NCBI RefSeq assembly: GCF_008087345.1
Contig: NZ_VHIB01000014.1
Location: 62,001 to 126,000, forward strand
DNA: 64,000 bases
Direction of reading: 5' to 3'
Source of the DNA: Nocardioides caldifontis
GTDB taxonomy: Bacteria; Actinomycetota; Actinomycetes; Propionibacteriales; Nocardioidaceae
The position numbers and the translations under genes are program-made. The stretch's first letter is position 1; each line of letters opens with the position of its first letter. Below are positions 36,068 to 62,374 of this stretch, piece after piece. The notes beneath the pieces are model-generated. The model saw only the letters and a program-made list of their open reading frames with translations, had not been told where the DNA came from and did not search any database.

Positions 36068-36085
36068 CCTGTCCAGCCGCTGTCC
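36068..36085 (-). promoter_or_regulatory. Direct-repeat box E (SARP type)
   Basis: On the minus strand: GGACAGC, four bases, GGACAGG; the second heptamer has one mismatch. It points at the small ORF starting at 35990. A single extra GGACAGC lies at 36102-36108 on the plus strand. Confidence 0.5.
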
Positions 36086-36251
36086 ACCCCGGCCAGGGGT
36101 CGGACAGCGGCGTCGCGACACTTGCCGGCCAGCACCTGGCGGCCCACCCGCATGACGCGACGGCGAGTGCTGCTGCCACCCGGGCAACCGAAACCAGGTG
36201 CGACCGAAGTCGGCCTGACGTCAGTCAGGGAGGAGCTGCATCGCTGGGGCC

Positions 36252-36284
36252 GGACAGCGTGCGGACAGCACGGCCGCGCAGCCT
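36252..36284 (+). promoter_or_regulatory. Direct-repeat box C with -10-like hexamer, before the first HMA gene
   Basis: GGACAGC at 36252 and 36263 (11-bp period), then nine bases, then CAGCCT (36279-36284) as a possible -10. The HMA-like gene starts 43 bases further. The layout is the same as boxes A and B. Confidence 0.6.
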
Positions 36285-36326
36285 GAAGCGCATCAGAGCC
36301 GAAGAAGTGCCGAAAGCGAGCCCGTC

Positions 36327-36605
36327 ATGCGTCAGCTCAACCTGTTCGTCGACGGCATGAGCCGCCGCCGCTGCGTGCGCGAAGTGACCGCGCGGCTCCG
36401 CGACGTCGCCGGGGTGGAAACGGTCACCGCCGACCCGAGCGACTGCATGGTCCGACTCTCCGGCTCCATGCGGCTCGCCGACGTGGTGGCCGCGTTCACC
36501 GGCACCACCTACCGACCCGAGTTGAAGTTCGCCACCGACAACGCGAGCGGCGACACCGACGACGACGACAGCGGTAGGACAGCGGTTGGCAAGTCATTGC
36601 CCTGA
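36327..36605 (+). CDS. HMA-like (CopZ-type) protein lacking the first metal Cys
   Basis: The protein has 92 residues. The ferredoxin-like HMA fold is recognisable (QLNLFVDGMSRRRCVREVTA, then VAGVETVTADPSDCMVRL), but the metal loop reads GMSRRRC. The paralogue at 50691 has DMGCRRC, so the first Cys of CxxC has become Arg here. The tail is acidic (GDTDDDDSGR). It may bind metal differently or have lost binding. It is preceded by SARP-type box C, and box F lies inside its 3' end. Confidence 0.72.
   Translation: MRQLNLFVDGMSRRRCVREVTARLRDVAGVETVTADPSDCMVRLSGSMRLADVVAAFTGTTYRPELKFATDNASGDTDDDDSGRTAVGKSLP
36566..36598 (+). promoter_or_regulatory. Direct-repeat box F before the DHA2 transporter
   Basis: CGACAGC at 36566 and GGACAGC at 36577 (11-bp period; one mismatch in the first), followed after nine bases by GTCATT. 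It lies inside the end of the HMA-like gene and 60 bp before the transporter start, so it could be an internal promoter. Confidence 0.45.
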
Positions 36606-36657
36606 GGTTGGCCGCCCAGCCGACGAAGGCTGGGTCGTCACCACAGAAGGGCACTTC

Positions 36658-38118
36658 ATGTCTACAACGCATCCCACCGAAGAAACCCGAAGGAGCCGCC
36701 GCTGGCTTGCTCTCGGGGTCATCGCCGCAGCGCAGTTCATGGTCATCATGGACACCTCCATCATCGGTGTCGCGCTGCCGAAGATGCAGCACGACCTCGG
36801 GTTCACCCCCCAGGGGCTCTCCTGGGTGTTCAACGCCTACGTCGTCGCGTTCGGCGGGCTGCTGCTGCTCGGCGGTCGGCTCTCGGACCTGTTCGGCGCC
36901 CGCCGCATCTTCACCCTGGGGTGGGTCATCCTGGCCGCCGGGTCGCTGATGGCGGGGTTCGCCGGAAACGTCCCCGTCGAGCTCGCCGGCCGCGCCGTCC
37001 AGGGCGCCGGGTCTGCACTGATCGCACCGGCCGCGCTGACGCTGCTGTTCATGTGCTTCGGGTCCTCGCCGAAGGAGCTCACACGAGCGTTGGCGCTGTA
37101 CGGCGCCGCCGCACCCGCTGGAGGTACGGCCGGGGTGTTCCTCGGCGGCCTGCTCACTGAGTACGCCTCGTGGCCATGGGTGTTCTTCGTCAACGTGCCC
37201 CTGGCCGTCATCGTGCTTGGCGTGACCCGTGCGGTGCTCCCCGCCGGAATGACGCGCCACGGTCACCTGAGCCTCACCAGCGCCGCCACCGTCACCACTG
37301 GGCTCGCCGCGGTGGTGTTCGCCGTGGTGCGCGCCCCGCAGGCCGGCTGGACCTCCGCGGCGACCCTGGCCGCCGGGCTCGGCGGGCTGGCGCTGCTCGG
37401 GATCTTCGTTGCTCTGCAGGCACGGCTGCGGGAGCCGCTGATGCGGCTCGGCATCTTCACCGCACCGAACCTTGCCGCCGCCAACGCCGCCCAGTTCCTG
37501 CTCGGGGCGGCGTGGATCCCGATGTTCTTCTTCCTCAACCTGTACCTGCAGCAGGTCCTCGGACTGGGCGCCTTCGCCAGCGGCGCGGCGCTGCTGCCGC
37601 TGACAGTCACCATCATGGTCGGCATGATCGGTGCCGCCCCGCGCCTCATCGCTCGCTTCGGCCCCAAGACGATGACGGTCACCGGGCACGCGACCTTGGC
37701 CGGCGGCCTGCTCTGGTTGTCGCTCATCCGCCCGGACGGCAGTTTCAGCGTCGACGTGCTGCCCGCCAGCCTGCTCGCCGCGGCCGGCATGGCGATGGCG
37801 TTCATCCCCTCCCTCGGGACGGCGCTGTCCTCGGCCGCCCCCGAGGAGGGCGGTCTCGCCTCGGGCATCGTGAGCACCAACTACCAGGTCGGCTCCGCGC
37901 TCGGGCTGGCCGCGATGACCGCACTTGCGGCCGCGTTCGGCGCCGACCAAGCCGGGAACACCGTCGCTCTCACTGACGGGTTCTCCGCCGGGCTGCTCGG
38001 CGCCGCCGGGATCGCCGCCGCCGGCGCTGTCCTGTCCTCGGTGTGGCTGCGGACCCCGCCGCAGCCCGACGAGCAGTCGCCCGACGCGACCGGGGAGCCG
38101 GAGCACGCCGCAGCCTGA
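36658..38118 (+). CDS. DHA2-family (EmrB/QacA-type) MFS drug exporter
   Basis: The protein has 486 residues from ATG 36658, with AGAAGGG upstream. Fourteen membrane helices are likely. Family motifs include MVIMDTSIIGVALPKMQHDL in helix 1, GGRLSDLFGARRIF (motif A) and the helix-5 antiporter motif GAAAPAGGTAGVFLGG. Members export drugs, dyes or antibiotics by proton antiport. It follows the HMA-like gene and precedes the SARP regulator; two strong hairpins follow its stop. Confidence 0.9.
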   Translation: MSTTHPTEETRRSRRWLALGVIAAAQFMVIMDTSIIGVALPKMQHDLGFTPQGLSWVFNAYVVAFGGLLLLGGRLSDLFGARRIFTLGWVILAAGSLMAGFAGNVPVELAGRAVQGAGSALIAPAALTLLFMCFGSSPKELTRALALYGAAAPAGGTAGVFLGGLLTEYASWPWVFFVNVPLAVIVLGVTRAVLPAGMTRHGHLSLTSAATVTTGLAAVVFAVVRAPQAGWTSAATLAAGLGGLALLGIFVALQARLREPLMRLGIFTAPNLAAANAAQFLLGAAWIPMFFFLNLYLQQVLGLGAFASGAALLPLTVTIMVGMIGAAPRLIARFGPKTMTVTGHATLAGGLLWLSLIRPDGSFSVDVLPASLLAAAGMAMAFIPSLGTALSSAAPEEGGLASGIVSTNYQVGSALGLAAMTALAAAFGADQAGNTVALTDGFSAGLLGAAGIAAAGAVLSSVWLRTPPQPDEQSPDATGEPEHAAA

Positions 38119-38123
38119 GCCTC

Positions 38124-38153
38124 GTGGGGGTCGGCAACGGCGCCGGCCCCCAC
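38124..38153 (+). terminator. Hairpin terminator after the DHA2 transporter
   Basis: GTGGGGGTCGGC pairs with GCCGGCCCCCAC (12 bp, one G-U pair) around a six-base loop, starting five bases after the stop codon. Confidence 0.7.
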
Positions 38154-38170
38154 ACGCCGCCGCAGACACA

Positions 38171-38204
38171 CCGCCGGCCCGCCCACCCGTGGGCGGGCCG
38201 GCGG
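38171..38204. terminator. Second strong hairpin before the SARP regulator
   Basis: A perfect 15-bp stem (CCGCCGGCCCGCCCA with its complement) around a CCCG loop. Two hairpins in a row insulate the large regulator gene at 38387 from upstream transcription. Confidence 0.65.
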
Positions 38205-38386
38205 CGTGACGGACTCCCCGGCCTTCGTCAGCAACCCGATTTCGTCGGTCCGGCAGGCGGCACCGACATGTTTGTGACTGCAGTCCCGGGATCGTGGGCC
38301 ATACGATGGCGCGGCGTAGACGTCTGGGCATTGCTCCACGAGCTGGCCCCGGAGCACGATGAAGTCGACCTGCGGATGGGACTGCC

Positions 38387-41300
38387 GTGAACGACGTGCG
38401 ATACGGGCTGCTTGGGCCGATGGAGGTCACCGTCGGTGGCTCGCCGGTCAAGCTGCCCGGCACCGCGGAACGAGCTCTGCTCGCCCAGCTGCTGCTCAAC
38501 CCCGGGCGCACCATCCCGGCCACGATGCTCGTCGACCGGTTGTGGTCGGAGTCCACGCTGCCGGTCGACCCGATGAACGCGCTGCAGATCCGGGTCTCTA
38601 AGCTCCGCCGGGCGCTGAAGGCGATCGACGTGGGTGACGTCGTCACCCGCGAAGGTGTCGGGTACCGCGCCACCATCGACCCCTCGTCGGTCGACGCCGT
38701 GGCCTTCGCCGAGCAGGTCCGGGAGGCACGGGCCGCCGCCGCGAACGCCGCCGACAACGGCGGGATACACCCGATGCATATGCAGGCCTACGACGAGGCA
38801 CTCGCGTTGTGGCGCGGTGAGCCGCTCAGCGACTTCGTCACCGAGCAGTGGGCCACCGCCGAAGCCGCCCGGCTCACCGAGCTTCGTCTCTCGGCGTTGA
38901 CCGAACGCGCGCAGGTGGCGCTTGCGTTGGGGCGGCACCTGGAAGTGATCGGTGACCTCGAACCTCTGGTCACCCAGGACCCGACGTTGGAGTCGCTCGC
39001 GGGGCTGCTGATGTTGGCGCTGTACCGCAGCGGCCGGCAGGCCGATGCCCTAGACGTGTACACCCGCACCCGGGAGGTTCTCGACGAGTCCCTGGGTCTG
39101 GAGCCGTCGGTGTCGTTGCGGTCACTGCACGAACGGGTGCTGCGTCAAGATGCCACCCTCGGTGGTCAGCACGACGTCGCACCTGCGCAGACCACGACCG
39201 GCGGCCCGGCCTCGAGCACCCTCGGCGCCGCGACCACCCCCGCCGCGCCCGCGACCATCACGGCACCCGGGCCACCGGCTCAACCCGGGGGGCCGTCCAC
39301 CTCGTCTCCCACTGGTGCGGCCAGTGTCCCTTCCAGCGCTCCGGCGGCGGTCCCCCCCTCGATGCCAGGGCACCGGCCGCGCGGCGCGGAGGACCGGACG
39401 GCGTCGACGAACCTGCCCACCGTGCTCCGGCCGCTGATCGGCCGCGATGAGCTGCTGGACTCCATCGCCGAGCTCCTCGACGGTGTGCGGCTGCTGTCGC
39501 TGATCGGGCCGGGGGGCGCCGGGAAGACGTCGTTGGCGCTCGCCACCGTCGTCCGCGCCGCCGGCACCTACCCCGACGGCGCGTACGGGGTCCGGTTGGC
39601 GTCGGTCAACACCGGCGAGCAGGTGCCGGTCGCGGTCGCCGACGCGGTGGGCATGCCGATGGACGGGGCCGCCGCGATCCGCGACCTCCGGGACCGGCTG
39701 ATCGCCTACCTGAGCCGGCGGCGCATGCTGCTGCTGTTCGACAACTGCGAGCACGTCGTCGACGCCGCGGCAGCGCTGATCGAGGACATCCTCAGCCGCT
39801 GCCCCGACGTCACCGTGATGGCGACCAGCCGCGAAGCGCTCGCCATTCCCGACGAGGTGCAAGTGACCGTGGGCCCGTTGGAAACCCCGCCGGCACAGAC
39901 CCGGCCCGAGCGGGTGCTCGGCTACCCGGCGGCGCAGCTGTTGGCCGAACGGGCCCGCGCGGTCCGGCCCGGACTGGTGTTCGACGTCTCCGACCTTGCT
40001 GCGATCGGGGACATCACGCGCGCCCTCGACGGCATCCCGCTGGCCCTCGAGCTCGCCGCCGCCCGGGTTTCCTCGATGTCGCCGACCGAGGTGTCGCAGC
40101 GGCTCGCCGATCGGTTCGCGCTGCTCACCACCGGGGCGCGTACCGCCGAGGCGCGGCAGCAGACCCTGCGCGCCGCGGTCGACTGGAGCTACCAGCTGCT
40201 GCGCGAGACCGAGCAACAGGTCTTCGACCGGCTCTCCATCTTCCAAGGGGGATGGACGCTGATGTCGGCCGAGGCCGTCGTTGGTGACGAGGCGTCGCGG
40301 CCCGGTGAGGTCCTGGACACCATCGGTCGGCTGGTCGAGCGGTCGATGCTGGTGGTTGAACCGGGCCCCACCACCCGGTACCGGATGCTGGAGACGTTGC
40401 GCCAGTACGCCGCCGAACGGCTCGCCACGTCCGGCCAGGTCAGCGAGGTGGCGCGTCGGCACGCCAACTACTTCCGCGACGTCGTCGCACGCGCCGAGGT
40501 CGCACTCCGGGGCCACGAGCAACGCCAGACGCTGCGGATGCTGCGCGAGGAACAACCGAACATCCACGCCGCCCTGGCGTTCTTCAGCGGACCCGACGGG
40601 GACCGGGACGCGGCGCTGACGATGGCCGGCTCCCTCGGGATGTTCTGGCACCTCGGCCGCCACCTCGAAGGACGGCAGGTGCTGTCCCGGCTGGTGACCG
40701 GGGGAGGCGGCTCACCCGCCGCGCGCGCTCTGGCGCTGCAGGCGGTGTCCATCGTCGAACGGCCCCGCGGGTGCCTGGCCCATCCCAGTCCTCGGTGCGC
40801 CGAGACCGCGGCCGAGAGCCTGAGCCTGTTCGAGGAGCTGGGCGACGACTGGCACGCCGCCCTGTCCCGTGTCCTCCTCGCGGTCGAGGGAGTCACCGGA
40901 GCCGAGCCGGACCGGTCCCGGAGCCTGCTGGCCGCGGCGGAGGAGCAGTTCCGCCGCGATGGAGACCCGTGGGGCCCGGCGGTAATCGGGTTCATCCGCA
41001 TGGAGACCGCGATGAAGGCCGGCGACGTCGATACCGCCGTCCGCCTGAGCCGGACCACGACCGCCGCGTTCCGCCAGCTCGATGACCCGTGGGGACTCTC
41101 CGCCACCCTGTACCACCTGGGGTGGGGGCTGCGGCAGGTCGGCCGGTTCGACGAAGCGGCCCGCGCTCTGGAGGAGGCGATCGACGTCGCCCGAGGTGCG
41201 GGGTTGTGGAACACCGTGCAGTGGGCGTTGGCCGATCTCGGCATCGAGAAGGTGCACCTGGGTGAGCTCGACGCCGCCCAACGCCTCTTCGACGAGGCCG

Positions 41301-41740
41301 CCGCCGCCTCCGTCGAGGTTGGTGACGGCGCTGGGGAGGTCCTCGCCGGATACGGCTACGGCCTCCTTGCTCACGTCGGCCGGGACTGGGCGGCAGCACG
41401 TCGCTACTACGCCGCCGCGGTGGATGGGTTCCACGGTCTGGCGACCCCGGTGATGGAAGGGGTGGCGCTGAACGGGGTGGCGCGTTGCGACGAAGCCGAC
41501 GGTGACCTGGAGGCTGCGACCGCCGGCTACGAGCAGGCACTGGAGATCGGTCGGCGGACCGGGGAGCCGGCCGTGACGGCCTCGGCCCTCGAGGGGCTCG
41601 CCCAGATCGCCGCCGCCCGGGGCGACCGGCCTCGGGGCGTGGAACTGCTGTCTGGGGCGACCGACATCCGGACGCGATCCCACCGGCCGGCACCGCCGCA
41701 CGAACGCCGCGACGTGGACGCTGTCGCCGGCACTGTCTGA
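38387..41740 (+). CDS. AfsR-like SARP regulator (OmpR-type DNA-binding, BTAD, NB-ARC, TPR)
   Basis: The protein has 1117 residues from GTG 38387. The N-terminal winged-helix SARP domain (RYGLLGPMEVTVGGSPVKLP to SKLRRALKA, about 1-85) is followed by the bacterial transcriptional activation domain (about 90-245). A Pro/Ala linker leads to an NTPase with the P-loop LIGPGGAGKTSLALA (near 373) and Walker B LLLFDNCEHV (near 447). A C-terminal half of TPR-like helices completes it. SARP activators bind heptamer direct repeats with 4-bp spacers overlapping the -35 region. Boxes of exactly that form occur near metal genes on both sides, making this the prime candidate for their control. Confidence 0.9.
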   Translation: MNDVRYGLLGPMEVTVGGSPVKLPGTAERALLAQLLLNPGRTIPATMLVDRLWSESTLPVDPMNALQIRVSKLRRALKAIDVGDVVTREGVGYRATIDPSSVDAVAFAEQVREARAAAANAADNGGIHPMHMQAYDEALALWRGEPLSDFVTEQWATAEAARLTELRLSALTERAQVALALGRHLEVIGDLEPLVTQDPTLESLAGLLMLALYRSGRQADALDVYTRTREVLDESLGLEPSVSLRSLHERVLRQDATLGGQHDVAPAQTTTGGPASSTLGAATTPAAPATITAPGPPAQPGGPSTSSPTGAASVPSSAPAAVPPSMPGHRPRGAEDRTASTNLPTVLRPLIGRDELLDSIAELLDGVRLLSLIGPGGAGKTSLALATVVRAAGTYPDGAYGVRLASVNTGEQVPVAVADAVGMPMDGAAAIRDLRDRLIAYLSRRRMLLLFDNCEHVVDAAAALIEDILSRCPDVTVMATSREALAIPDEVQVTVGPLETPPAQTRPERVLGYPAAQLLAERARAVRPGLVFDVSDLAAIGDITRALDGIPLALELAAARVSSMSPTEVSQRLADRFALLTTGARTAEARQQTLRAAVDWSYQLLRETEQQVFDRLSIFQGGWTLMSAEAVVGDEASRPGEVLDTIGRLVERSMLVVEPGPTTRYRMLETLRQYAAERLATSGQVSEVARRHANYFRDVVARAEVALRGHEQRQTLRMLREEQPNIHAALAFFSGPDGDRDAALTMAGSLGMFWHLGRHLEGRQVLSRLVTGGGGSPAARALALQAVSIVERPRGCLAHPSPRCAETAAESLSLFEELGDDWHAALSRVLLAVEGVTGAEPDRSRSLLAAAEEQFRRDGDPWGPAVIGFIRMETAMKAGDVDTAVRLSRTTTAAFRQLDDPWGLSATLYHLGWGLRQVGRFDEAARALEEAIDVARGAGLWNTVQWALADLGIEKVHLGELDAAQRLFDEAAAASVEVGDGAGEVLAGYGYGLLAHVGRDWAAARRYYAAAVDGFHGLATPVMEGVALNGVARCDEADGDLEAATAGYEQALEIGRRTGEPAVTASALEGLAQIAAARGDRPRGVELLSGATDIRTRSHRPAPPHERRDVDAVAGTV

Positions 41741-41985: not shown

Positions 41986-42065
41986 GGTGTTTCGGTGAGC
42001 TGGGCGGGGTGCGTTGATGGACGCTTCTCCCGGTTGACGTGCACGCCGGGCAGGGAGGTCGTCGC

Positions 42066-47430: not shown

Positions 47431-47595
47431 TCAGCGGCTGCGCAGGGACACCAGGCCGGCCGTGTAGTCGACGCGGGCGGCGTAGGCGGCATCGCGGCGC
47501 CGTGACCCGTATCGGCTGAGGGTGCCCCGGGCCGCCGCTGGGATCTGGCGGGTGCGGCTGGTGCGGAACGGACGGGTGTGGGCCTGCGTCGACAT
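47431..47595 (-). CDS. Small basic ORF with strong ribosome-binding site
   Basis: The frame encodes 54 residues from ATG 47595, with GGAGGTCACC directly before the start, the best ribosome-binding site in this part. The product is Arg-rich (pI high), without membrane segments, with a C-terminal half DAAYAARVDYTAGLVSLRSR. No family is recognised. A GGACAGC direct-repeat box lies 74 bp upstream on the same strand, which adds weight to it being expressed. Confidence 0.5.
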   Translation of the reverse strand: MSTQAHTRPFRTSRTRQIPAAARGTLSRYGSRRRDAAYAARVDYTAGLVSLRSR

Positions 47596-47668
47596 GGTGA
47601 CCTCCATCAAGGGCGGGACCGGCGGAGCCGGCGGGTGCAACGAGCGTCACGGCGCCCGCTGGCCGTCG

Positions 47669-47686
47669 GCTGTCCGTCCGCTGTCC
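47669..47686 (-). promoter_or_regulatory. Direct-repeat box D (SARP type)
   Basis: On the minus strand GGACAGC, GGAC, GGACAGC: two exact heptamers with an 11-bp period, pointing at the 54-residue ORF. No good -10 hexamer lies nine bases downstream, unlike boxes A-C. Confidence 0.55.
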
Positions 47687-50623: not shown

Positions 50624-50656
50624 GGACAGCGAGTGGACAGCGGCTCGTCGCAGGCT
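50624..50656 (+). promoter_or_regulatory. Direct-repeat box A with -10-like hexamer, before HMA-CzcO genes
   Basis: GGACAGC at 50624 and 50635 (exact, 11-bp period), nine bases, then CAGGCT (50651-50656). The HMA gene starts 35 bases later. It lies after the multicopper oxidase stop, giving the HMA-flavoprotein pair its own promoter. Confidence 0.6.
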
Positions 50657-50690: not shown

Positions 50691-50990
50691 ATGACGGTCC
50701 TGGAATTGTTCGTACCCGACATGGGCTGTCGCCGCTGCGTTCGCGAGGTGACGGCCAGGCTGCGTGATGTCCCCGGCGTGCAGACCGTGACGGTGGACGC
50801 GGCCCGGTCCCACGTCACGCTCACCGGCACGATGACCGCAGCCGACGCCCTGGCCGCCCTCCCCGGCGCCGGCGGCCACTTGACCAGACTCGATGCCGGG
50901 GACGGCGTCGACGGAGCCGCTGCAGCCAGCGCAGCCGCCCGAAGCCGAGCACGGCCCGGCGAGACCGACGCCGAGCAGGCCTACGGATGA
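50691..50990 (+). CDS. HMA-domain metallochaperone-like protein
   Basis: The protein has 99 residues from ATG 50691, with AAGGAGG upstream. The HMA fold has the metal loop DMGCRRCVREVTARLRDVPG (CxxC intact) and an Ala/Arg-rich tail. Such small proteins carry Cu(I) or Zn(II) to exporters or oxidases. It overlaps the CzcO-like gene by four bases (ATGA) and follows the multicopper oxidase. It is the functional-looking paralogue of the Cys-deficient protein at 36327. Confidence 0.85.
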   Translation: MTVLELFVPDMGCRRCVREVTARLRDVPGVQTVTVDAARSHVTLTGTMTAADALAALPGAGGHLTRLDAGDGVDGAAAASAAARSRARPGETDAEQAYG

Positions 50991-52312
50991 CCGACCTGCC
51001 TAGCACCGGCGCGCCCGGTCCGCCGCGACCCACCACCACAGCTCAGTCCCTCGGTGAACACACCCAGCTTCCGCGCAACCTGATCAAGCCGGCCCCGCCC
51101 CACGTCCCAACGCCGCCCCAACTCACACGGAGCCCCACCTTGTACGCCACCCGCCACGCCACGTCCGACACCGAATCCGACGCACCGAGCGACTACGGCC
51201 GGACGGCCGACGCCGGCGACAACACGCTCGACGTCATCGTCATCGGAGCCGGGCAGGCCGGGCTGGCGCTTGCCTGGCACCTGGCCCACCAGGGTCGCCG
51301 GTTCCTGGTCCTGGACGCCGCCCCGGAGCTCGGCCACACCTGGCGCAACCGGTGGGACTCCCTTCGACTGTTCTCCCCGGCGCAGTACGACTCCCTGCCC
51401 GGCATGGCGTTCCCCGCCGCCGCCGACACCTACCCGACCAAGGACCATGTCGCGGACTACCTCGCCGCGTACGCTGCCCGCTTCGAGCTGCCCGTGCTCC
51501 TCGGCACCGCCGTCACCCGGCTCGAGCAGCAGCAAGGCCGGTTCGCCGTGCACACCACCCAGGGCGTGCTGCACGCCCGGCAGGTCGTGGTCGCAACCGG
51601 GCCGTTCCAGCGCCCGGTCGTGCCGACGATGGCCGGTGAGCTGGCCTCCGGGGTGGTGCAGCTGCACAGCGCCGAGTATCGCAACCCCAACCAGATCCCC
51701 CGCGGGCCCGTGGTCGTGGTCGGCGCCGGCAACAGCGGCCTGCAGATCGCCGCTGAGCTCGCCGGCGACCACGAGGTCACCCTGGCCGTCGGCTCCACAG
51801 CCCTCGCCTTGCCGCAACGGCTCCTCGGCCGGGACCTGTTCTGGTGGCTGACCAAGCTGAAGCTGCTCGCCAAGACCGCCGACTCCCGGTTGGCGAAGCG
51901 GATGCAGGCCGGCGGCGACCTGGTCATCGGGTCCTCCCTCAAGGCGGTGCGCCGCCGGGGCGTCTCGATCCGACCCCGGGTCACCGGCACCACGCGGGAC
52001 GGCATGCTTTTCGCCGACGGCCATCGCGAGGCGCCGACCACGGTGATCTGGGCGACCGGGTTCCGGTCCGACTACTCCTGGATCCAGGTCCCCGGTTTGC
52101 TCGCTGACGGGCAGGTGGTGCACCAGCGCGGTGTCACCGGGGTTCCTGGTCTGTACTTCCTCGGCCTGACGTGGCAGCACACCCGCGGTTCCGCGCTGCT
52201 CGGCTTCGTCGAGCACGACGCGGCATGGCTCGCCGCGTTCATGCACCCGAACGCCAGCCGGTCGAGCCACGACACGCCGGCCCAGGCACTCGACCGACTG
52301 GCGTTGCGGTGA
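50987..52312 (+). CDS. CzcO-like FAD-dependent oxidoreductase
   Basis: The protein has 441 residues from ATG 50987. The first 78 residues are low-complexity, so an internal start is possible. The FAD motif is VIVIGAGQAGLALAWHLA, the flavin-monooxygenase-type fingerprint is VQLHSAEYRNP, and the NADPH motif is VVVVGAGNSGLQIAAEL, followed by VIWATGF. CzcO proteins are flavoproteins found in metal-resistance loci (annotated with Co/Zn/Cd or arsenic); substrates are uncertain. It is coupled to the HMA gene. Confidence 0.83.
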   Translation: MTDLPSTGAPGPPRPTTTAQSLGEHTQLPRNLIKPAPPHVPTPPQLTRSPTLYATRHATSDTESDAPSDYGRTADAGDNTLDVIVIGAGQAGLALAWHLAHQGRRFLVLDAAPELGHTWRNRWDSLRLFSPAQYDSLPGMAFPAAADTYPTKDHVADYLAAYAARFELPVLLGTAVTRLEQQQGRFAVHTTQGVLHARQVVVATGPFQRPVVPTMAGELASGVVQLHSAEYRNPNQIPRGPVVVVGAGNSGLQIAAELAGDHEVTLAVGSTALALPQRLLGRDLFWWLTKLKLLAKTADSRLAKRMQAGGDLVIGSSLKAVRRRGVSIRPRVTGTTRDGMLFADGHREAPTTVIWATGFRSDYSWIQVPGLLADGQVVHQRGVTGVPGLYFLGLTWQHTRGSALLGFVEHDAAWLAAFMHPNASRSSHDTPAQALDRLALR

Positions 52313-52418: not shown

Positions 52419-53600
52419 ATGACCGTCGCCGTCGTCACCGGGGCCGCCAGCGGCATCGGCCACGCCCTCGCCTCGCAGCTCGCCCGCGAGGGCCACCTCG
52501 TCCACCTCGCCGACGTCACGCCGACTGCCGAGCTCGCCGCCCAGCTTGGCGGTGTGCCGCACCAGGTCGACGTGGCCGACTCACAGGACATGCAACGGCT
52601 CGCCGACAACGCAGCCGACGCCGCGATCGTTTGCCTGAACGCCGGCATCGTCGGACCCACCACCGGCGCTCCCTGGGAAGCCGTCCCCGCCGAATGGGAC
52701 CGGGTCTTGCGCGTGAACCTCGGCGGCGTGGTGAACGGGCTCCGCGCTTTCGTGCCCGGGCTGCTGCAGTACGGTCACCCCGCGCACCTGGTCATCACCG
52801 CCTCCCTCGCCGGTCTCCTCACCTTCCCCGGCGGCGGTGCGTACGCCGCAAGCAAGCACGCGGTCCTCGCCGTCGCCGAGCAGGCCGCACTGGCGCTGGC
52901 CGACACGAACGTCACCGTGACCGTGCTCTGCCCGGCGCTGGTGCGCACCCGCATGTCGGAGATCGGCGACGACCCCGCCGAGGTGGCCGCCGACGCGCTC
53001 GCCGCCGCCCGCGCAGGCCAGTTCCTGGTGACTCCGAGCGGATGGGAAGAGGCCATCCAGCGGCGCACCGACCTCCTGACCACGGGAGGTACGCCGCAGA
53101 TGCCGAGGCCCACGGCCGAACCAGACGTGACCTCCGCGTACGACGTGCCACCCACGCCCGGTGTCCGGCAGATGCGCCTGGTCGTCGAGGCGGCTGAGTA
53201 CGACGAGGCGCTCCGGTTCTACAGGGACGTACTCGGCGCACCGGTGGAACTGCAGATCCACGGCGATCAGGGCGAGAAGGTCACCATCCTCGACGCCGGA
53301 CGGGCCACCCTCGAGCTGTCCAACCCCGAACAGGTCGCGATGATCGACCGGTTCGAGGTCGGCCGTCGGGTGGCGCCGCACCTGAGGGTGGCGTTCGAGG
53401 TTGACGACGTCGACGAAGCAAGTGCACGTGCGAAGGCCGCCGGAGCCACGATGATCGCCGAACCCACTCTCACGCCCTGGCAGTCGCGTAACGCACGGCT
53501 CACAGCCCCAGCCGGTCTCCAGCTCACCCTGTTCGAGGAGCCCGCCGCGGAACCCGACGGTCCCAAGGGCGCGAACACCACGGAAACCCCGCCCGGATGA
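52419..53600 (+). CDS. SDR-VOC fusion protein
   Basis: The protein has 393 residues. The N-terminal short-chain dehydrogenase has the cofactor motif VTGAASGIG (residues 6-14), CLNAGIVG and a Ser/Tyr/Lys site (ITASL, YAASK). It is followed after residue 245 by a VOC (glyoxalase/bleomycin-resistance) domain: MRLVVEAAEYDEALRFYRDV to LTAPAGLQLTLFEE. One uninterrupted frame joins them. VOC domains bind metals and act on or sequester small molecules. The combination is uncommon, and no substrate can be stated. Confidence 0.85.
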   Translation: MTVAVVTGAASGIGHALASQLAREGHLVHLADVTPTAELAAQLGGVPHQVDVADSQDMQRLADNAADAAIVCLNAGIVGPTTGAPWEAVPAEWDRVLRVNLGGVVNGLRAFVPGLLQYGHPAHLVITASLAGLLTFPGGGAYAASKHAVLAVAEQAALALADTNVTVTVLCPALVRTRMSEIGDDPAEVAADALAAARAGQFLVTPSGWEEAIQRRTDLLTTGGTPQMPRPTAEPDVTSAYDVPPTPGVRQMRLVVEAAEYDEALRFYRDVLGAPVELQIHGDQGEKVTILDAGRATLELSNPEQVAMIDRFEVGRRVAPHLRVAFEVDDVDEASARAKAAGATMIAEPTLTPWQSRNARLTAPAGLQLTLFEEPAAEPDGPKGANTTETPPG

Positions 53601-54571: not shown

Positions 54572-54683
54572 GCGGACGAGGTGCTCCTGTCGGCGGGCGT
54601 GGTGGCTAGCGAGGGGCGTCGAAGGCGTGACCGGTGGCCGGTCGCGCCACGCATGGTGCGCTGCCGGCCACCCGGGTCCGGAG

Positions 54684-55298
54684 TCAGGACTGCTCGAGTA
54701 GCTGCTCCATCTGCTCGATCTCGTCGTTCTGGGTCGCGATGATGTCTTTCGCCATCGCGATCGCGTCCGGGTTCTCGCCTTCGGCAACCTCGGACTCCGC
54801 CATTTCGACCGCGCCGCGGTGGTGCTCCACCATCATCTCGAGGAACGTGCGGTCGAACTCCGCCCCGGAAGCGTCCTTGAGCATGGTCATGTCCTCCTCG
54901 GTCATCATGCCGCTCATGTCGGAGCCGGAGTCGCCGTGCCCCATGTCGCCGTGGTCCATCTCACCGGAGGGCGCCTCCTCGCCCCACGCCTCGAGCCAGG
55001 TCGTTAGCTGCTCGATCTCGGGTGCTTGGGCGGCCTCGATGTCGGCGGCGAGCTGCTTCACCCGATCGCTCTCGGCGCGATCTGCCGCGAGCCTCGACAT
55101 TTCGACAGCCTGCGCATGATGCGGCAGCATCCCCTGGGCGAAGGTGACGTCGGCGTCGTTGAACTCCGCGGCCGCGCTCGGGCTGTCCGAGCTATCGGAG
55201 CTCGTGTCGGCGCTGCTGCCGGAGCTGTCGTCTCCGCACGCGGTGAGCGCGAGTAGGGCTGCGGTGAGCAGCGCGATCGGGGTGAGCGACTTGCGCAT
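54684..55298 (-). CDS. DUF305 lipoprotein
   Basis: The protein has 204 residues from ATG 55298. A lipobox (LLALTACGDDSS) places it as a lipid-anchored outer-face protein. A Ser/Asp-rich linker leads to DUF305 with MLPHHAQAVEMSRLAADRA and EMMVEHHRGAVEMAESEV, joined by a Met/His segment (MDHGDMGHGDSGSDMSGMM) that could bind copper. It follows the copper ATPase by 45 bases on the same strand. Relevant to lspA and lnt in this window, which mature lipoproteins. Confidence 0.9.
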   Translation of the reverse strand: MRKSLTPIALLTAALLALTACGDDSSGSSADTSSDSSDSPSAAAEFNDADVTFAQGMLPHHAQAVEMSRLAADRAESDRVKQLAADIEAAQAPEIEQLTTWLEAWGEEAPSGEMDHGDMGHGDSGSDMSGMMTEEDMTMLKDASGAEFDRTFLEMMVEHHRGAVEMAESEVAEGENPDAIAMAKDIIATQNDEIEQMEQLLEQS

Positions 55299-55342
55299 CG
55301 GGTGGACTCCTCGGGCAGGGTTGGGTGCGGTTGCTTGGCTGG

Positions 55343-57838: not shown

Positions 57839-58000
57839 GGTGCTGCCCTCCTCACGATGGCGCGGTGTGGGCGGTGTGCAGGCGGTGGATGAGGCGATCG
57901 GTGGCGGCAGTCGCGGAGTTGATCTGGTGGTCTGTGGGTGGGGGAGGGACGCCCGTCGGGGGTGTCGGACGCCCCTCCGCTCAGGGGTGCCAGCCCGAAG

Positions 58001-58234
58001 TCAGGCCAGCTGGTAGTCGCCGGCCTCCTCGAGCGCGGTCGCGACGAGATCATCACTCAACGCCTCGGTGCCGGTGACCTTGACCGTCGAGGTGCCGTCG
58101 GCAACCAGGTCGACGCTGACGTCGACCACTCCGGGGAGCTGCTTCAGCTCCTCGGTGACGGCGCCGGCGCAGTGGCCGCACGTCATCCCGGTCACCTGAA
58201 ACGCCTGAACGTGTTGGCTGGCCTGCTCGGTCAC
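58001..58234 (-). CDS. copZ: CopZ-like copper chaperone
   Basis: The protein has 77 residues from GTG 58234, with AGGGAG upstream. The HMA domain has the canonical loop VTGMTCGHCAGAVTEEL. It delivers Cu(I) to the ATPase encoded downstream. The longer upstream frame crosses the promoter region and is not used. Upstream lie a CsoR-like dyad and an 11-bp direct repeat, so copper and two-component control are both likely. Confidence 0.92.
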   Translation of the reverse strand: MTEQASQHVQAFQVTGMTCGHCAGAVTEELKQLPGVVDVSVDLVADGTSTVKVTGTEALSDDLVATALEEAGDYQLA

Positions 58235-58392
58235 GTCGTTCTCCCTATCCAAGTCGAGTTCAAGGTTGAGGGTTCGGACCGTTCGGCGAGGAGCGGAGTT
58301 CGGCATGCGTGACGGGCTGCCCATACCCGGCTGCGTGGCCCTCACCGCTCTGCCCTTCCGTGTCCGCCGGAACCTGTCCTACGCCTTCACCG

Positions 58393-58407
58393 TACCCCCC
58401 TGGGGTA
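58393..58407. promoter_or_regulatory. CsoR-like copper operator before copZ
   Basis: TACCCC, three bases, GGGGTA: a perfect dyad of the TACCC/GGGTA type bound by CsoR repressors. It lies about 160 bp before copZ. No csoR gene is visible in the window, so a distant one would be needed. Confidence 0.6.
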
Positions 58408-58429
58408 TGAGGACCATGACGCGGGCGAT

Positions 58430-58451
58430 GTCTTCATGGAACCTTCATGAA
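58430..58451. promoter_or_regulatory. Direct repeat R1 (response-regulator type) before copZ
   Basis: GTCTTCATGGA and ACCTTCATGAA are adjacent 11-base units sharing CTTCATG at 58432 and 58443. Tandem 11-bp repeats are the usual sites of OmpR/PhoB-family regulators. The related repeat R2 precedes the response-regulator gene at 60571. Confidence 0.5.
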
Positions 58452-58477
58452 CATGGTCCTGCTGGGATGTTGGGGGA

Positions 58478-59740
58478 TCAGCCGCGCGTCGAGGGAGTCG
58501 TGGAGGCTGGCAGCCGCATTGTGAACGTCGCACCGTGACCGGGGCCGTCGCTGGCCACCGTGATGATGCCGTCGTGGGCCTCGACGAGCGCTCGGGTGAT
58601 CGCGAGCCCGATGCCGGCGCCGCCGTGGCCGCGGTCGCGGGCGGTGTCGACCCGGTAGAACCGGTCGAACAGGTGCGGCAGGTGTTCGGCCGCGATCCCG
58701 TCGCCGGTGTCGGTCACCGAGTACTGCACCCAGGTGGTGTCGCCGGCGTGCATGGGCTGGCAGGTCACGGTCACGGTGCCGCCCGGGGGAGTGTGCGCGA
58801 GCGCGTTGTCGAGCAGGTTGGTCAGTACCTGCGCCAGCCGGTCGGCGTCGCCGACGACAGCGGCTGCGGTCAGGTCGGTGCGGAGTTCGACGCCCTTGCC
58901 GGCGTACCTGCTCTCGAGGGCAGTGGCGGCCGACCGGGTGACGTCGGCGGCGTCGAGGCGCCGGAACTGTAGCTCGAGGTTGCCTTCCTCGGCGCGAGAG
59001 ACCGCAGAGACGTCCTCGGCGAGCCTGCGCAGCCGTCCGGTGCTGGCTCGCAGCACCGCCAACGTGTCGGCGTCGAGTTCGCGGACACCGTCCTCGATCG
59101 CCTCCAGATGCGCCTCGACGGTGGCTAGTGGGGTGCGCATCTCGTGCGCGAGGTCGGCCAGCATCCGCCGTCGTGTCGTCTCCACCGTCTCCAGCCGGCT
59201 GGCGAGCGTGTTGTAGCTGCCGGCCAGGGTCTCGAACTCCGCGCCGATGCCGGGCGCAGGAACCCGGGTGTCGAACCGGCCGGCGGCGATCTCAGCGGCC
59301 GCGTCGGTCACGGTGCCGATGGAGCGCTGGACCCGGCGGCTGAAGTACCACGACACCGCCAGGGCCGCGGCGACCGAGGCCAGCAGCGCCACCGCGACCG
59401 AGATCAGCAGCGCGGACCCGAACGCCTCCTCGATATGCGCCACCTCGGTCGGGGTGTGGAAGTCGCCGGCCTCCGCCAGATGGTCATGGAACAGTCCCGG
59501 GCCGACCACGGAGGCCACCACCCAGGTGGTGACGGCGCCGGCACCGAGCACCAGGGCCTGAGCGACCATCAGCCGGACCGCGAACCCAGCCGGTCTGCGC
59601 ACCGCCGGCGACGGCGACGACGCTGCGCCGCGCAGGCTGCCGCGGGACGCACCGGATGGGCTGTCGGACACGGTGCCGTGCTGGGTGCTGTGAGGGGTGC
59701 TGTGAGGGGTGCTGTGCGGGGAGCCGCTGGAGGTGGTCAT
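58478..59740 (-). CDS. Sensor histidine kinase (BaeS/CusS-like)
   Basis: The protein has 420 residues. Order: a low-complexity N-terminus with PHST repeats, two membrane helices (about 55-75 and 108-130) flanking a short sensor loop with HDHLAEAGDFH, a HAMP domain, HisKA with LADLAHEMRTPLATVEAHL, and HATPase with NLLDNALAHT, DTGDGI and GAGIGLAI. The His-containing external loop could see metal. It overlaps the response-regulator stop by four bases. With its partner it probably controls copZ and its own operon. Confidence 0.9.
   Translation of the reverse strand: MTTSSGSPHSTPHSTPHSTQHGTVSDSPSGASRGSLRGAASSPSPAVRRPAGFAVRLMVAQALVLGAGAVTTWVVASVVGPGLFHDHLAEAGDFHTPTEVAHIEEAFGSALLISVAVALLASVAAALAVSWYFSRRVQRSIGTVTDAAAEIAAGRFDTRVPAPGIGAEFETLAGSYNTLASRLETVETTRRRMLADLAHEMRTPLATVEAHLEAIEDGVRELDADTLAVLRASTGRLRRLAEDVSAVSRAEEGNLELQFRRLDAADVTRSAATALESRYAGKGVELRTDLTAAAVVGDADRLAQVLTNLLDNALAHTPPGGTVTVTCQPMHAGDTTWVQYSVTDTGDGIAAEHLPHLFDRFYRVDTARDRGHGGAGIGLAITRALVEAHDGIITVASDGPGHGATFTMRLPASTTPSTRG
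59685..59720. repeat. 12-bp tandem repeat in the kinase N-terminus
   Basis: Three copies of GTGCTGTGAGGG (third with one mismatch), with a degenerate fourth just before. They encode PHST units on the minus strand. Repeat number may vary between strains. Confidence 0.7.
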
Positions 59741-60510
59741 GAGCCGGTGCCCATCCGGTATCCGACGCCCCGTACGGTGCGGATGAATCGGGGCTGGTTC
59801 GCGTCGTCGCCGAGCTTGCGGCGTAAGTGCCCGATGTGCACGTCGACCAGGTGCTCGTCGCCCACCCAGGTGGGCCCCCAGACTGTCTCGATGAGCTGGC
59901 TGCGGCTGAACGCCATCTGAGGCCGAGTCGACAGGGTGGCGAGCAGGTCGAACTCGGTGCGAGTCAACGCGACCGGCTCACCGTCGCACCACACGTCGCG
60001 GCCGACAGGGTCGATGGTCAGCGCTCCGAAGGTGCGGTGCTGCTCGGACCCGTCCGCGTCCTCCGAAGCCGGGCGAGGGGTCGTGCGGGGGCGGCGCAGC
60101 ATCGCCTGGATGCGGGCGACGAGCTCTCGGGGGCTGAACGGCTTGGTGATGTAGTCGTCGGCGCCTACCGAGAGCCCGATGAGGGTGTCGACCTCCTCGC
60201 TGCGGGCGGTGAGCATCACCACGTAGCAGTCGCTGAAGGCCCGCAGCTGCCGGCACACCTCGACCCCGTCGAGCCCGGGGAGCCCCAGGTCAAGCACCAC
60301 CACGTCCGGGTCCACCTCGCGAGCAGTGCCGACCGCTCGGGCGCCGTCGTGGCTCAGGGTCACCTCGAACCCAGCCCGTTCCAGATAGCTGCCGACGAGC
60401 GTGGCCAGCGGCACCTCGTCTTCCACGACCATGGCGCGCCGCAGTGGCACACCAGTAGGGCGGCCCGCACCGGTGGCTGTGGCGGCGTTCGCGGGACGGG
60501 TCTGTGCCAT
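59737..60510 (-). CDS. OmpR/PhoB-family response regulator
   Basis: The protein has 257 residues. The receiver domain has EDEVPLA (acidic pair), the phosphorylated Asp in VVVLDLGLPG, LTAR and ITKPFSPREL (Lys). The DNA-binding winged helix contains TRTEFDLLATLS and VHIGHLRRKLGDDANQPRFI with VRGVGYRM at the end. The gene is first in the operon with the kinase. An 11-bp direct-repeat triplet lies 60 bp upstream, matching R1 before copZ, which suggests autoregulation and copper-gene control. Confidence 0.92.
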   Translation of the reverse strand: MAQTRPANAATATGAGRPTGVPLRRAMVVEDEVPLATLVGSYLERAGFEVTLSHDGARAVGTAREVDPDVVVLDLGLPGLDGVEVCRQLRAFSDCYVVMLTARSEEVDTLIGLSVGADDYITKPFSPRELVARIQAMLRRPRTTPRPASEDADGSEQHRTFGALTIDPVGRDVWCDGEPVALTRTEFDLLATLSTRPQMAFSRSQLIETVWGPTWVGDEHLVDVHIGHLRRKLGDDANQPRFIRTVRGVGYRMGTGS

Positions 60511-60570
60511 GACCTACATCGTCGCAGCCGCGGCCCGTTCCGCTGGCGGCTGACCGGTGGGACGCTGAAA

Positions 60571-60599
60571 ATCTTGAGCGGATCTTCATACGATCTCCA
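60571..60599. promoter_or_regulatory. Direct-repeat triplet R2 upstream of the response regulator
   Basis: ATCTTGA (60571), ATCTTCA (60582) and ATCTCCA (60593) recur at exactly 11-bp intervals. The units resemble those at 58430-58451 (consensus [AG][TC]CTTCA). The site lies between the response-regulator gene (minus) and the small membrane gene at 60669 (plus). Confidence 0.55.
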
Positions 60600-60668
60600 C
60601 GCTGCAGCCCAGGTGCATGGCCGACGTTGGGGCGCACCGCGTCGGGCAGAACGAAGGGGAGGCCGCTA

Positions 60669-60956
60669 GTGGGCGGCTGGCACGACCATGGCCCCGGCTG
60701 GAGTGGCTGGCTGCTGATGACGATGACGATGTTCGCGTTCTGGGGCCTGGTGTTCCTCGGTGTGGTGGCGCTGTTCCGCACCGGCACCGGGCACGGCGGC
60801 CTAGTGCGGGGTGGGCATCTGTCTCGGACTCGGGCTAGGGTCCGGGATTTGGTGGGGGACTCGTCAAGATCCATGAACCGTCGACGAACCGTGGACGGAG
60901 AACCAGAGGAGAGGGCCGCACCGCGTGCCGAAGCACCGCACCGAGGACACCCATGA
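60669..60956 (+). CDS. Small single-pass membrane protein (SHOCT-protein-like N-terminus)
   Basis: The protein has 95 residues from GTG 60669, with AGGGGAGG upstream. The N-terminus GGWHDHGPGWSGWLLMTMTM and following helix (FAFWGLVFLGVVALF) are typical of short actinobacterial membrane proteins that end in a SHOCT domain. No SHOCT motif is visible; the C-terminal half is Arg-rich and overlaps the next gene by 32 bases in another frame. It may be a truncated family member. The WHDHGPGW start could bind copper. Confidence 0.55.
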   Translation: MGGWHDHGPGWSGWLLMTMTMFAFWGLVFLGVVALFRTGTGHGGLVRGGHLSRTRARVRDLVGDSSRSMNRRRTVDGEPEERAAPRAEAPHRGHP

Positions 60957-61755
60957 GCCCCGCCCACGCACCGGAACTCGACCGGACCGGCCCCGGCCGC
61001 GCCACCGCAAACCGGCCCGAGCGCTAGGAAGGTTCGTCCCGCTGGTCGCGGCCGGCGTCGTGCTTGCCAGTGGCGGCGCGTTGGCCGCCGAGCTCGGCGA
61101 CTCGGCGACCAGCGACCCGGCCCACGCGTTGGGCGCCGCGTCCGGCGGCAACGTCCTGACCGCTGCCGAGCTCGACGCTGCCCGGCAAGAGCAGCTCTCC
61201 CGTGGCGGCGGCCGACGGGTCCTCGAGGTGGAGCAGCGCGACGCTCGCATGGTGGCCCGACTCGAGGCGCGCGCCGAGCGGCTGCAGGCCCGGCGGGAAC
61301 GGGAGCGGAAGCGGCGGGCCGCGGAACGGGAGCGGCGCCAGGCACTCGCCGAGGCCCGCGCCTGGCGGCCCCCGCTGACCGGATACGACATCACCGCCAC
61401 CTTCGGGCAGTCCAGCTCACTGTGGTCCACGGTGCACACCGGGGTGGATCTCGCCGCACCATCGGGGATGCCGGTCACCTCGACCGCGCCAGGCACCGTC
61501 ACCTTCGCCGGGTACGACGGCGCCTACGGGTACAAGGTCGTCGTCGAACACGAGAACGGCACCGCGACCTGGTACGCGCACCTCGCCTCGCTCAGCGTCA
61601 ACGTCGGCGAGGTCGTCAGCCACCACACCGTCGTCGGCCCGGTCGGCTCCACCGGGAACGTCACCGGCCCACACCTGCACCTCGAGGTCCGACCCACCGG
61701 CGGTGAACCGGTCGACCCCGTGGCGGCGCTCGCCGGGCAAGGCGTGCACCTGTAG
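60925..61755 (+). CDS. M23-family peptidase with membrane anchor and Arg-rich coiled coil
   Basis: The protein has 276 residues from GTG 60925. A basic N-terminus leads to one membrane helix (about 35-55), an Arg/Glu coiled coil (85-140) and a LytM domain with VHTGVDLAAPSG and GPHLHLEVRP. Both zinc motifs are intact, so it is probably an active peptidoglycan hydrolase. It overlaps the small membrane gene upstream. It differs from the 22133 peptidase in having no long coiled coil or secretory cleavage site. Confidence 0.85.
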   Translation: MPKHRTEDTHEPRPRTGTRPDRPRPRHRKPARALGRFVPLVAAGVVLASGGALAAELGDSATSDPAHALGAASGGNVLTAAELDAARQEQLSRGGGRRVLEVEQRDARMVARLEARAERLQARRERERKRRAAERERRQALAEARAWRPPLTGYDITATFGQSSSLWSTVHTGVDLAAPSGMPVTSTAPGTVTFAGYDGAYGYKVVVEHENGTATWYAHLASLSVNVGEVVSHHTVVGPVGSTGNVTGPHLHLEVRPTGGEPVDPVAALAGQGVHL

Positions 61756-61839
61756 CCGACTAACCCCTTCGCCCGGGGGGGCCGTCGGGGCGCCACGGCA
61801 TCGAGCGCGGCGCAGAACCAGGGGCTCGAACGGCGGCGT

Positions 61840-62247
61840 TTAGCCGATCTGCTCGAGCAGCCGGTTGCACGCCTGCTCGCAGCGCCGGCAGGCCTCGGCG
61901 CAGATCCGGCAGTGCTCGTGCATCTCCGCGTGCCCCGCGCACTCGTCGCCGCACGCCTTGCATGCCTGCGCGCACGCGGTGAGCATCGCCCGGGTCAGGT
62001 TCGCGTCGTAGGCGGTGTGCCGCGACAGCACCCGCCCTGAGGTGCCGCAGATGTCGGCGCAGTCCAGGTCGGTGCGGATGCACTTGCGGAGCTCGGCGAC
62101 CATCTCCTCGCTCAGGCATGCGTCGGCGCACGCGGTGCACGCCTGCGCGCACTGGAAGCACGCCGCGATGCACTCGGCGAGTGCGTCCTTGTCGAGGTCG
62201 ATCTGTCCGGCATGCGCCTCCAGCATGGCGCCGATGTGGTGAGTCAT
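61840..62247 (-). CDS. Four-helix-bundle copper storage protein (Csp/DUF326 type)
   Basis: The protein has 135 residues from ATG 62247, with GGGAGGAGC upstream. It contains 18 Cys, spaced as C-x3-C and C-x2-C along helices (ECIAACFQCAQACTACADAC; TACAQACKACGDEC; HCRICAEACRRCEQAC). This is the pattern of cytosolic copper storage proteins that hold many Cu(I) ions in a four-helix bundle. No signal peptide is present, so a cytosolic Csp3-like store is likely. A TACCCC half-site lies just upstream on the plus strand. Confidence 0.92.
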   Translation of the reverse strand: MTHHIGAMLEAHAGQIDLDKDALAECIAACFQCAQACTACADACLSEEMVAELRKCIRTDLDCADICGTSGRVLSRHTAYDANLTRAMLTACAQACKACGDECAGHAEMHEHCRICAEACRRCEQACNRLLEQIG

Positions 62248-62341
62248 GCTCCTCCCATACCCCTGCTCGGCCACGCGGAGACAGACGGACACCGACCGGA
62301 CTCCGGGCAGATATGGGGGTGGGTGACGCCGGCAAGCGGGT

Positions 62342-62374
62342 GGACAGCAGTCGGACAGCGGGCCGCCGCAATCT
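62342..62374 (+). promoter_or_regulatory. Direct-repeat box B with -10-like hexamer, before DUF3159 gene
   Basis: GGACAGC at 62342 and 62353 (exact, 11-bp period), nine bases, then CAATCT (62369-62374). The ATG of the DUF3159 gene is seven bases further, so the transcript would be leaderless if this promoter is used. Confidence 0.6.

Follow-up and report, generated by a model that had tools for sequence, protein, structure and literature searches.

AfsR of Streptomyces coelicolor is a large Streptomyces antibiotic regulatory protein (SARP) in which a nucleotide-binding oligomerization domain (NOD) and tetratricopeptide repeats (TPR) autoinhibit the SARP domain, an inhibition that ATP binding relieves in vitro (PMC10936776). 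Its target promoter, that of afsS, combines a poor -35 element (TTCAGC) and a suboptimal -10 element (CACTGT) with two 11-bp repeats from -40 to -19, and in SARP promoters generally 8 bp separate the 3′ repeat from the -10, with a repeat spacing of 11 or 22 bp (PMC10936776). Sites of three repeats are known for DnrI, ActII-ORF4 and PimR, with 4-bp spacers for PimR (PMC10972967), and EmbR of Mycobacterium tuberculosis, studied as a virulence regulator (PMC9239209), closely resembles the SARP structure (PMC10936776). Here we analyse a 64,000-nucleotide stretch of the Nocardioides caldifontis genome (the window; contig NZ_VHIB01000014.1, positions 62,001 to 126,000), in which direct repeats of the heptamer GGACAGC precede genes for heavy-metal-associated (HMA) proteins, exporters and a flavoprotein, and in which an AfsR-like protein is encoded from position 38387 (the 38387 SARP). 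Judged by sequence comparison, these repeats would be the operators of a SARP regulon under that protein, a reading to which we assign a probability of about 0.86.

Repeat and promoter geometry

A box was defined as a pair of GGACAGC heptamers with a 4-bp spacer, that is, in an 11-bp register, and the window was scanned allowing zero to two mismatches. The four exact GGACAGC-N4-GGACAGC pairs listed by an earlier, sequence-only reading of the window were found at 36252 (+), 47669-47686 (−), 50624 (+) and 62342 (+), as were its two one-mismatch pairs at 36068-36085 (−) and 36566 (+). Nine pairs with up to two mismatches were observed against 1.57 expected, a number reached by none of 100 shuffles. 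Nor is the motif scattered through the genome (4,806,234 bases in 33 contigs): four of its five exact pairs and seven of its ten pairs with up to one mismatch lie in the window, as do all four sites (4/4) at which a box with up to one mismatch is followed after nine bases by the hexamer SANNST. The same reading had described a CANNCT hexamer exactly nine bases past the second heptamer at 36252, 50624 and 62342, which holds at all three; two corrections apply. The hexamer is better described as [CG]ANN[CG]T (SANNST), and the weaker boxes contain a third, degenerate in-register repeat (GGCAAGG, GGCAAGT or GGCCAGC), with the hexamer 9 bp past this third heptamer; a repeat of this kind, GGCCAGC at 47658, also stands beside the exact minus-strand pair. 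The hexamer of the 36566 box, GAGGTT, fails even the relaxed pattern, being off by one base.

The comparison set comprised 18 loci (364,979 bases), namely 30-64 kb of the window and 17 relatives, taken around the regulator or its HMA partner (loci are numbered L, genomes G). Duplicate contigs were kept once (L032 = L049, L035 = L048, L033 = L088); L087, whose HMA gene lies at the very start of a 12.9-kb contig, was left out, L142 and L144 are not in the set, and in L050 and L076 the SARP lies outside the retrieved stretch but was found elsewhere in both genomes. These loci contain 13 exact pairs against 0.0 expected, 43 pairs with up to one mismatch against 0.7, and 91 with up to two mismatches against 10.2. 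The hexamer stands at offset 9 after the second heptamer in 11 of the 13 exact pairs, and in the remaining two at offset 20, nine bases past a third, degenerate in-register heptamer. Among the 43 pairs, for which adjacent pairs within one triple box were scored separately, it lies at offset 9 in 22 and at offset 20 in 18, no other offset between 0 and 39 exceeding 2/43, and the third heptamer is frequently GGCAAGC-like. In a control of 14 exact pairs outside SARP loci, by contrast, the hexamer was found at offset 9 in one and at offset 20 in none. Because the SANNST rule was derived from the same 18 loci before being counted there, an out-of-sample test matters, and six loci of other families, retrieved after the rule had been fixed, provide one (see below).

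The spacing of repeats and hexamer is that of SARP/AfsR promoters. The heptamers are direct repeats in an 11-bp register, and in 13/13 exact pairs 9 bp separate the last heptamer from the hexamer of the putative promoter, where SARP promoters have about 8 bp; taking the hexamer as -12 to -7, arithmetic places the heptamers at -39 to -33 and -28 to -22. As with AfsR and afsS, whose CACTGT itself fits [CG]ANN[CG]T, a large SARP with NOD and TPR parts is associated with 11-bp direct repeats over the -35 region, although the heptamer here is GGACAGC where the afsS -35 reads TTCAGC, and the targets are detoxification genes. As with DnrI, ActII-ORF4 and PimR, heptamer repeats precede the target promoter, some sites having three, but those regulators act on antibiotic clusters, and the targets recognised in this study include no biosynthetic genes.

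Co-occurrence of box and regulator

Within the family, 341 genomes were scanned with the sensor part of the SARP (E <= 1e-8) and with the HMA partner (E <= 1e-10). The sensor was found in 20 genomes, at 65% identity or more in each, and the HMA partner in 19, all of them among those 20 (0/321 others). A box with hexamer (up to one mismatch) occurs in 23 genomes, 14/20 with the SARP versus 9/321 without it (Fisher p = 1.1e-14), and 11 of the 12 exact sites of box and hexamer in the family are in SARP genomes. The sole exact site outside SARP genomes, with the hexamer GACCGT, lies at L053:9794-9836 (+) in G025, where the SARP sensor was not found.

At the level of the class, seven of 394 scanned genomes contain the sensor, and six of these belong to four other families. 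In every one of the six loci the hexamer follows one or more pairs with up to one mismatch; together they hold six exact pairs, with the hexamer at 9 in two, at 20 in three and at neither in one, and L154 has no exact pair and a single qualifying box. In the most distant of them, L156-L158, the SARP (37-46% identical) is accompanied by genes for a P-type ATPase and an ArsO/CzcO-like protein, and boxes lie between those two genes. From this co-occurrence we infer that the GGACAGC boxes are the operator of the 38387 SARP. The candidate SARP regulon put forward by the sequence-only reading is thereby supported, since the motif is not scattered genome-wide, the box is kept upstream of orthologues in relatives that keep the regulator, and it tracks the 38387 SARP. 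Carriage of the SARP on plasmids was considered and rejected: tblastn against PLSDB returned 65 records for the SARP, all below 60% identity (33-38% among the 20 matches listed), and neither a sensor fragment nor the L157 SARP found a match within the limits applied.

The 38387 SARP and its sensor

The 38387 protein has the SARP domain order, Pfam Trans_reg_C (3.5e-09) followed by BTAD (1.8e-39), and its best PDB sequence matches by phmmer are EmbR (2fez, 7.1e-33) and AfsR (8hvr, 5.2e-32). Behind the SARP domain lie the NOD ATPase and TPR parts of a large SARP: a Walker-A motif, GPGGAGKTS, is present, TPR_12 scores above its Pfam cut-off and the ATPase families below theirs, and the sensor is modelled as a helical repeat array whose PDB fold matches include LGN, Rap/NprR and 6mfv, a TPR protein of the signal transduction ATPases with numerous domains (STAND). 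The protein is not AfsR proper, scoring 206 bits against a cut-off of 1430 for the NCBIfam equivalog NF053617, and it differs from EmbR, which has an FHA domain where the 38387 protein has NOD and TPR parts, the SARP fold being common to both. Its domains and the operator layout make it a SARP, and thus a kind of regulator already known. The recognition helix, NAL[HQ][ILV]RVSKLRR, is kept in 16 aligned SARPs and in the six other-family loci, and differs in four comparable paralogues of the genome. T88 and R92 of AfsR contact bases (PMC10936776); in our own reading of the alignments they correspond to I68 and K72 of the 38387 SARP, replacements that would be in keeping with a different heptamer.

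Five Cys and His residues of the sensor (H755, H759, C796, H799 and C804) lie in residues 740-830, the most conserved block of the C-terminal half (48% invariant); H910 is also conserved, as is C1034 in 14/15 orthologues. Between residues 640 and 1080, 5/11 His and 2/3 Cys are invariant, the overall invariance ranging from 16 to 48% between regions, and we claim no enrichment. The AlphaFold model has a mean predicted local distance difference test score (pLDDT) of 79, with low confidence at residues 755-760 and 793-800 and at the N-terminal end. Two of the three closer other-family loci keep the Cys/His set; the paralogues of the genome lack it (a lone His, at 799, aligns in one), as does a Streptomyces anulatus relative. 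The conserved residues invite a metal-binding hypothesis and do not show it, and the lack of H755, H759, C796 and C804 in L156-L158, together with an Asp at 759 in L154, speaks against a metal sensor.

Genes behind the boxes

The window features are collected in Table 1, where genes are identified by their start. The sequence-only reading had called the boxed set metal-resistance genes, which holds in part: two HMA-type proteins are boxed, while the rest comprises exporters, the ArsO/CzcO-like flavoprotein (whose name 'CzcO' comes from that reading), hydrolases and small open reading frames (ORFs) of no assigned function. The label of HMA gene for 36327 needs a correction: its product resembles the 50691 HMA protein but has no Pfam match and has lost the first Cys of CRRC, reading SRRRC where CRRC is kept in the 50691 copy and in seven relatives found by pattern scan. 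The best NCBIfam match of the 36658 exporter is efflux_EmrB (DHA2), at 189.5 bits under a cut-off of 230.2. The start codon at 62381 lies only 6 bases past the hexamer, a distance that may leave the mRNA leaderless. In G209 (L075/L146) and G207 (L145) the SARP gene has DUF3159 and CzcO-like genes next to it, which connects the distant 62342 box with this regulon. Homologues of ORF 35990 carry the box in L032, L035, L050, L051 and L077. The family of this ORF is boxed in 6/18 loci, often divergent from an HMA gene.

Table 1 Boxes, boxed genes and neighbouring features of the proposed regulon in the window
Feature	Coordinates	Strand	Remarks
Box GGACAGC-N4-GGACAGG-N4-GGCAAGG, 9 bp, GAGCGT (36047-36042)	36042..36085	−	Putative promoter of ORF 35990
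Exact box, 9 bp, CAGCCT (36279-36284)	36252..36284	+	Putative promoter of HMA-like 36327; box also before HMA orthologues in relatives
Box CGACAGC-N4-GGACAGC-N4-GGCAAGT, 9 bp, GAGGTT	36566..36609	+	Putative promoter of DHA2-SARP unit; box precedes DHA2 in relatives
Triple box GGACAGC-N4-GGACAGC-N4-GGCCAGC, 9 bp, GACGCT (47648-47643)	47643..47686	−	Putative promoter of ORF 47595
Exact box, 9 bp, CAGGCT (50651-50656)	50624..50656	+	Putative promoter of HMA 50691 and ArsO/CzcO-like gene
Box GGCAAGC-N4-GGACAGC-N4-GGACAGC, 9 bp, CAATCT (62369-62374)	62331..62374	+	Putative promoter of DUF3159 gene 62381
Small conserved ORF, no Pfam match	35805..35990	−	First gene ahead of two hydrolase genes and an MMPL transporter gene
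HMA-like small protein	36327..36605	+	58% identical to 50691 HMA protein
DHA2-family exporter of the major facilitator superfamily (MFS)	36658..38118	+	Pfam MFS_1 3.5e-46
Large SARP (AfsR-like)	38387..41740	+	Trans_reg_C residues 26-94, BTAD 102-252, STAND/NOD ATPase region, TPR sensor
Sensor stretch H755-x3-H759, C796-x2-H799-x4-C804	40649..40798	+	Conserved across aligned orthologues
Small ORF, function not assigned, behind triple box	47431..47595	−	ATG 47595 preceded by GGAGGT
HMA metal-binding protein, CRRC intact	50691..50990	+	Pfam HMA 1.4e-11
ArsO/CzcO-like flavoprotein	50987..52312	+	Start overlaps HMA stop codon; NCBIfam ArsO 249 bits, cut-off 425
Short-chain dehydrogenase/reductase (SDR)-glyoxalase fusion	52419..53600	+	3′ of HMA-flavoprotein pair
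DUF3159 protein	62381..63088	+	MFS transporter gene next (from ~63152), runs past window end

Across the 18 loci, 55 boxes (pairs with up to two mismatches) followed by the hexamer were tabulated, some of which are expected by chance at two mismatches; the 36566 box is not among them. The nearest recognised downstream gene encodes an HMA protein in 12, a DHA2 exporter in 11, a member of the ORF-35990 family in 6, an alpha/beta hydrolase in 4, CopZ in 4 and a P-type ATPase in 3, with ORF 47595 and DUF3159 once each. One box (L032) was tagged as preceding a multicopper oxidase (MCO) gene through a shared HMBD match, the gene actually encoding a YHS/HMBD P-type ATPase. Three of the 18 loci (L080, L082 and L085) have no box meeting the hexamer rule, the DHA2 box there ending in CAGGTT. 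No antibiotic biosynthesis genes are among the recognised targets, 12/55 boxes having no recognised gene downstream; action on antibiotic genes is in any case a usual rather than a defining trait of SARPs, because EmbR lacks such a role. A pattern scan of the relatives found 15 P-type ATPases with ACPCALGL and a GMTCxxC or CPIC (HMBD) head, which we take to be copper-type pumps; not all are boxed, and in some relatives boxes lie directly upstream of such ATPases or of CopZ. Boxes unlinked to the SARP locus stand before an MFS-like gene in G325 (C1:370092, with the SARP at C1:4287053) and, at about 230 bp, an alpha/beta-hydrolase-like gene in G175 (contig 29, with the SARP on contig 34), both names being read from translations without a family search. 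These sites fit a factor acting in trans, though single one-mismatch sites can be chance.

Proposed mechanism and alternatives

We infer binding, activation, autoregulation and an inducing signal along the following lines. At rest the NOD and TPR parts would hold the SARP domain back, as in AfsR, until a signal frees it; two or three SARP protomers would then sit side by side on GGACAGC-type heptamers in the 11-bp register, dock sigma region 4 at the poor -35, and recruit RNA polymerase to the weak [CG]ANN[CG]T -10 lying 9 bp past the last heptamer. The SARP would activate its own operon (HMA-like protein, DHA2 exporter and SARP), which is probably one autoregulated unit, and four further units of the window: ORF 35990 and its downstream genes, ORF 47595, HMA 50691 with the ArsO/CzcO-like gene, and DUF3159 with the MFS gene. 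The target set looks like a thiophilic-metal and xenobiotic detoxification response that in some relatives includes Cu-type P-type ATPases and CopZ.

The novelty lies in a SARP clade that has a box of its own, occurs in five families and has metal-binding, exporter and detoxification genes as its targets. The sequence-only reading held that SARPs are known for antibiotic pathways and that control of metal genes would be new; SARPs are not confined to antibiotics, as EmbR shows, whereas no description of a SARP controlling metal genes was found in the open-access literature, judged by titles and abstract openings. Surprise is tempered because EmbR already takes the SARP fold beyond antibiotics. 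The usual controllers of copper and other metal resistance genes are CopR/CusR-type two-component systems and the CsoR, ArsR and MerR sensors, which share such targets with the proposed regulon but belong to regulator classes other than SARPs. If the proposal is correct, a SARP gene need not flag a biosynthetic cluster, and metal and detoxification responses gain an ATP-switched STAND regulator. Since the box and the -10 rule predict targets for each genome, a small, defined regulon would be at hand with which to test directly what large SARPs sense.

Several observations count against control of the boxes by the 38387 SARP. Six of the 20 SARP genomes (G240, G248, G261, G284, G326 and G335) have no box with up to one mismatch, and in G325, one of the 14, the only match is far from its SARP; these six and G325 all belong to a divergent group (SARP about 51-53% identical) in which CAGGTT closes the DHA2 box. 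Within the window, the copper block (53647-61755) contains no box followed by the hexamer even with up to three mismatches, and that metal is the signal is guessed from the kinds of gene present. Similar DNA could be bound by eight other DNA-binding regions of SARP type in the genome, 35-44% identical, and the response regulator at 59737, whose gene lies near the SARP locus in the window, shows linkage to that locus in three genomes (G000, G128 and L154). OmpR-type regulators also read 11-bp direct repeats, and this one (59737-60510) carries a Trans_reg_C DNA-binding domain and is encoded together with a kinase next to the copper genes; its orthologue in L154 (74% identical) lies 5-10 kb from the DHA2 and SARP genes, that in G128 is on the same contig as the SARP sensor match, about 6 kb away, and in a genome without the SARP an exact pair stands just upstream of an OmpR-type regulator gene (L016/L052, L052:9500 +), possibly a case of autoregulation by another family. 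It is nevertheless extremely unlikely that the boxes are read by the 59737 regulator: an orthologue (E <= 1e-70) occurs in only 7/20 SARP genomes, so it cannot be their general reader; boxes are present in SARP genomes without it (G055, G090, G171, G175, G189, G207, G209, G234 and G301); and its own block lacks them, the copZ upstream region there having another 11-bp repeat, TTCATGG-N4-TTCATGA. On these grounds it was rejected as the general reader. That another BTAD/SARP protein of the genome reads the boxes, the 38387 SARP being a mere neighbour, is very unlikely. The own-genome search did return 16 matched segments including 38387 itself, the eight others just mentioned spanning the DNA-binding and BTAD region, but box and 38387-type SARP co-occur across the 341 genomes and in other families, and the four comparable paralogues carry other recognition helices. 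The probability that the heptamer pairs are an effect of chance or GC composition is practically nil; isolated exact pairs do exist in genomes without the SARP, yet these mostly lack the hexamer, and a chance origin was rejected on the shuffles, the pair counts in the 18 loci, the fixed hexamer distance and the control pairs.

If the 38387 SARP does control the boxes, its regulon could serve mainly against drugs or xenobiotics (electrophiles), with the DHA2 exporter in the lead and the metal genes as passengers of a metal-rich island. We regard this variant as possible without favouring it: many box targets are exporters, hydrolases, the SDR-glyoxalase or the flavoprotein, the 36327 HMA copy lacks one metal-binding cysteine, the window is generally rich in metal genes, and on a Streptomyces anulatus plasmid a gene for an AfsR-like SARP follows an oxidoreductase gene and an MFS gene, none of the 14 listed features being a metal gene; however, boxes stand directly before Cu-type P-type ATPase or CopZ genes in several relatives, and the SARPs of L156-L158, the most distant loci, are partnered by a P-type ATPase and an ArsO/CzcO-like gene. 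A further idea, which we consider unlikely, is that the SARP itself is a metal-responsive STAND switch in a clade that pairs it with HMA and DHA2 proteins. A thiophilic metal, perhaps handed over by the HMA protein, would bind the TPR Cys/His residues and order the poorly predicted loops, and this ordering would relieve the AfsR-type autoinhibition so that the boxes fire. Such a SARP would be a metalloregulator class unlike CsoR, ArsR, MerR and CopR; we hold the idea at low weight because the distant loci are without most of the motif.

Other repeats and metal genes

Some further repeats share the 11-bp spacing. Five GGACAG-type heptamers stand in a row at L054:7519-7569, in a genome without a SARP orthologue. 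On the Streptomyces anulatus plasmid NZ_CP109523.1 (L119:4468-7212), ACCGAGA-ACGG-ACCGAGA lies in an 11-bp register upstream of the oxidoreductase-MFS-SARP set, which is perhaps another SARP-controlled efflux unit with a different heptamer. The TTCATGG-N4-TTCATGA repeat of the copper block, at 58433-58450 (+) upstream of the copZ-like gene 58001-58345 (−), is a candidate box of response regulator 59737. The heavy-metal P-type ATPase at 55343-57838 (−) is an unusual variant, with TCPDALG in place of the CPC of copper pumps and no CxxC despite an HMA-type domain. The left half of the window (11455-27368) encodes a cation efflux protein (cation diffusion facilitator, CDF), a cadmium transporter, and an SPC-type P-type ATPase with an ArsR-family gene.

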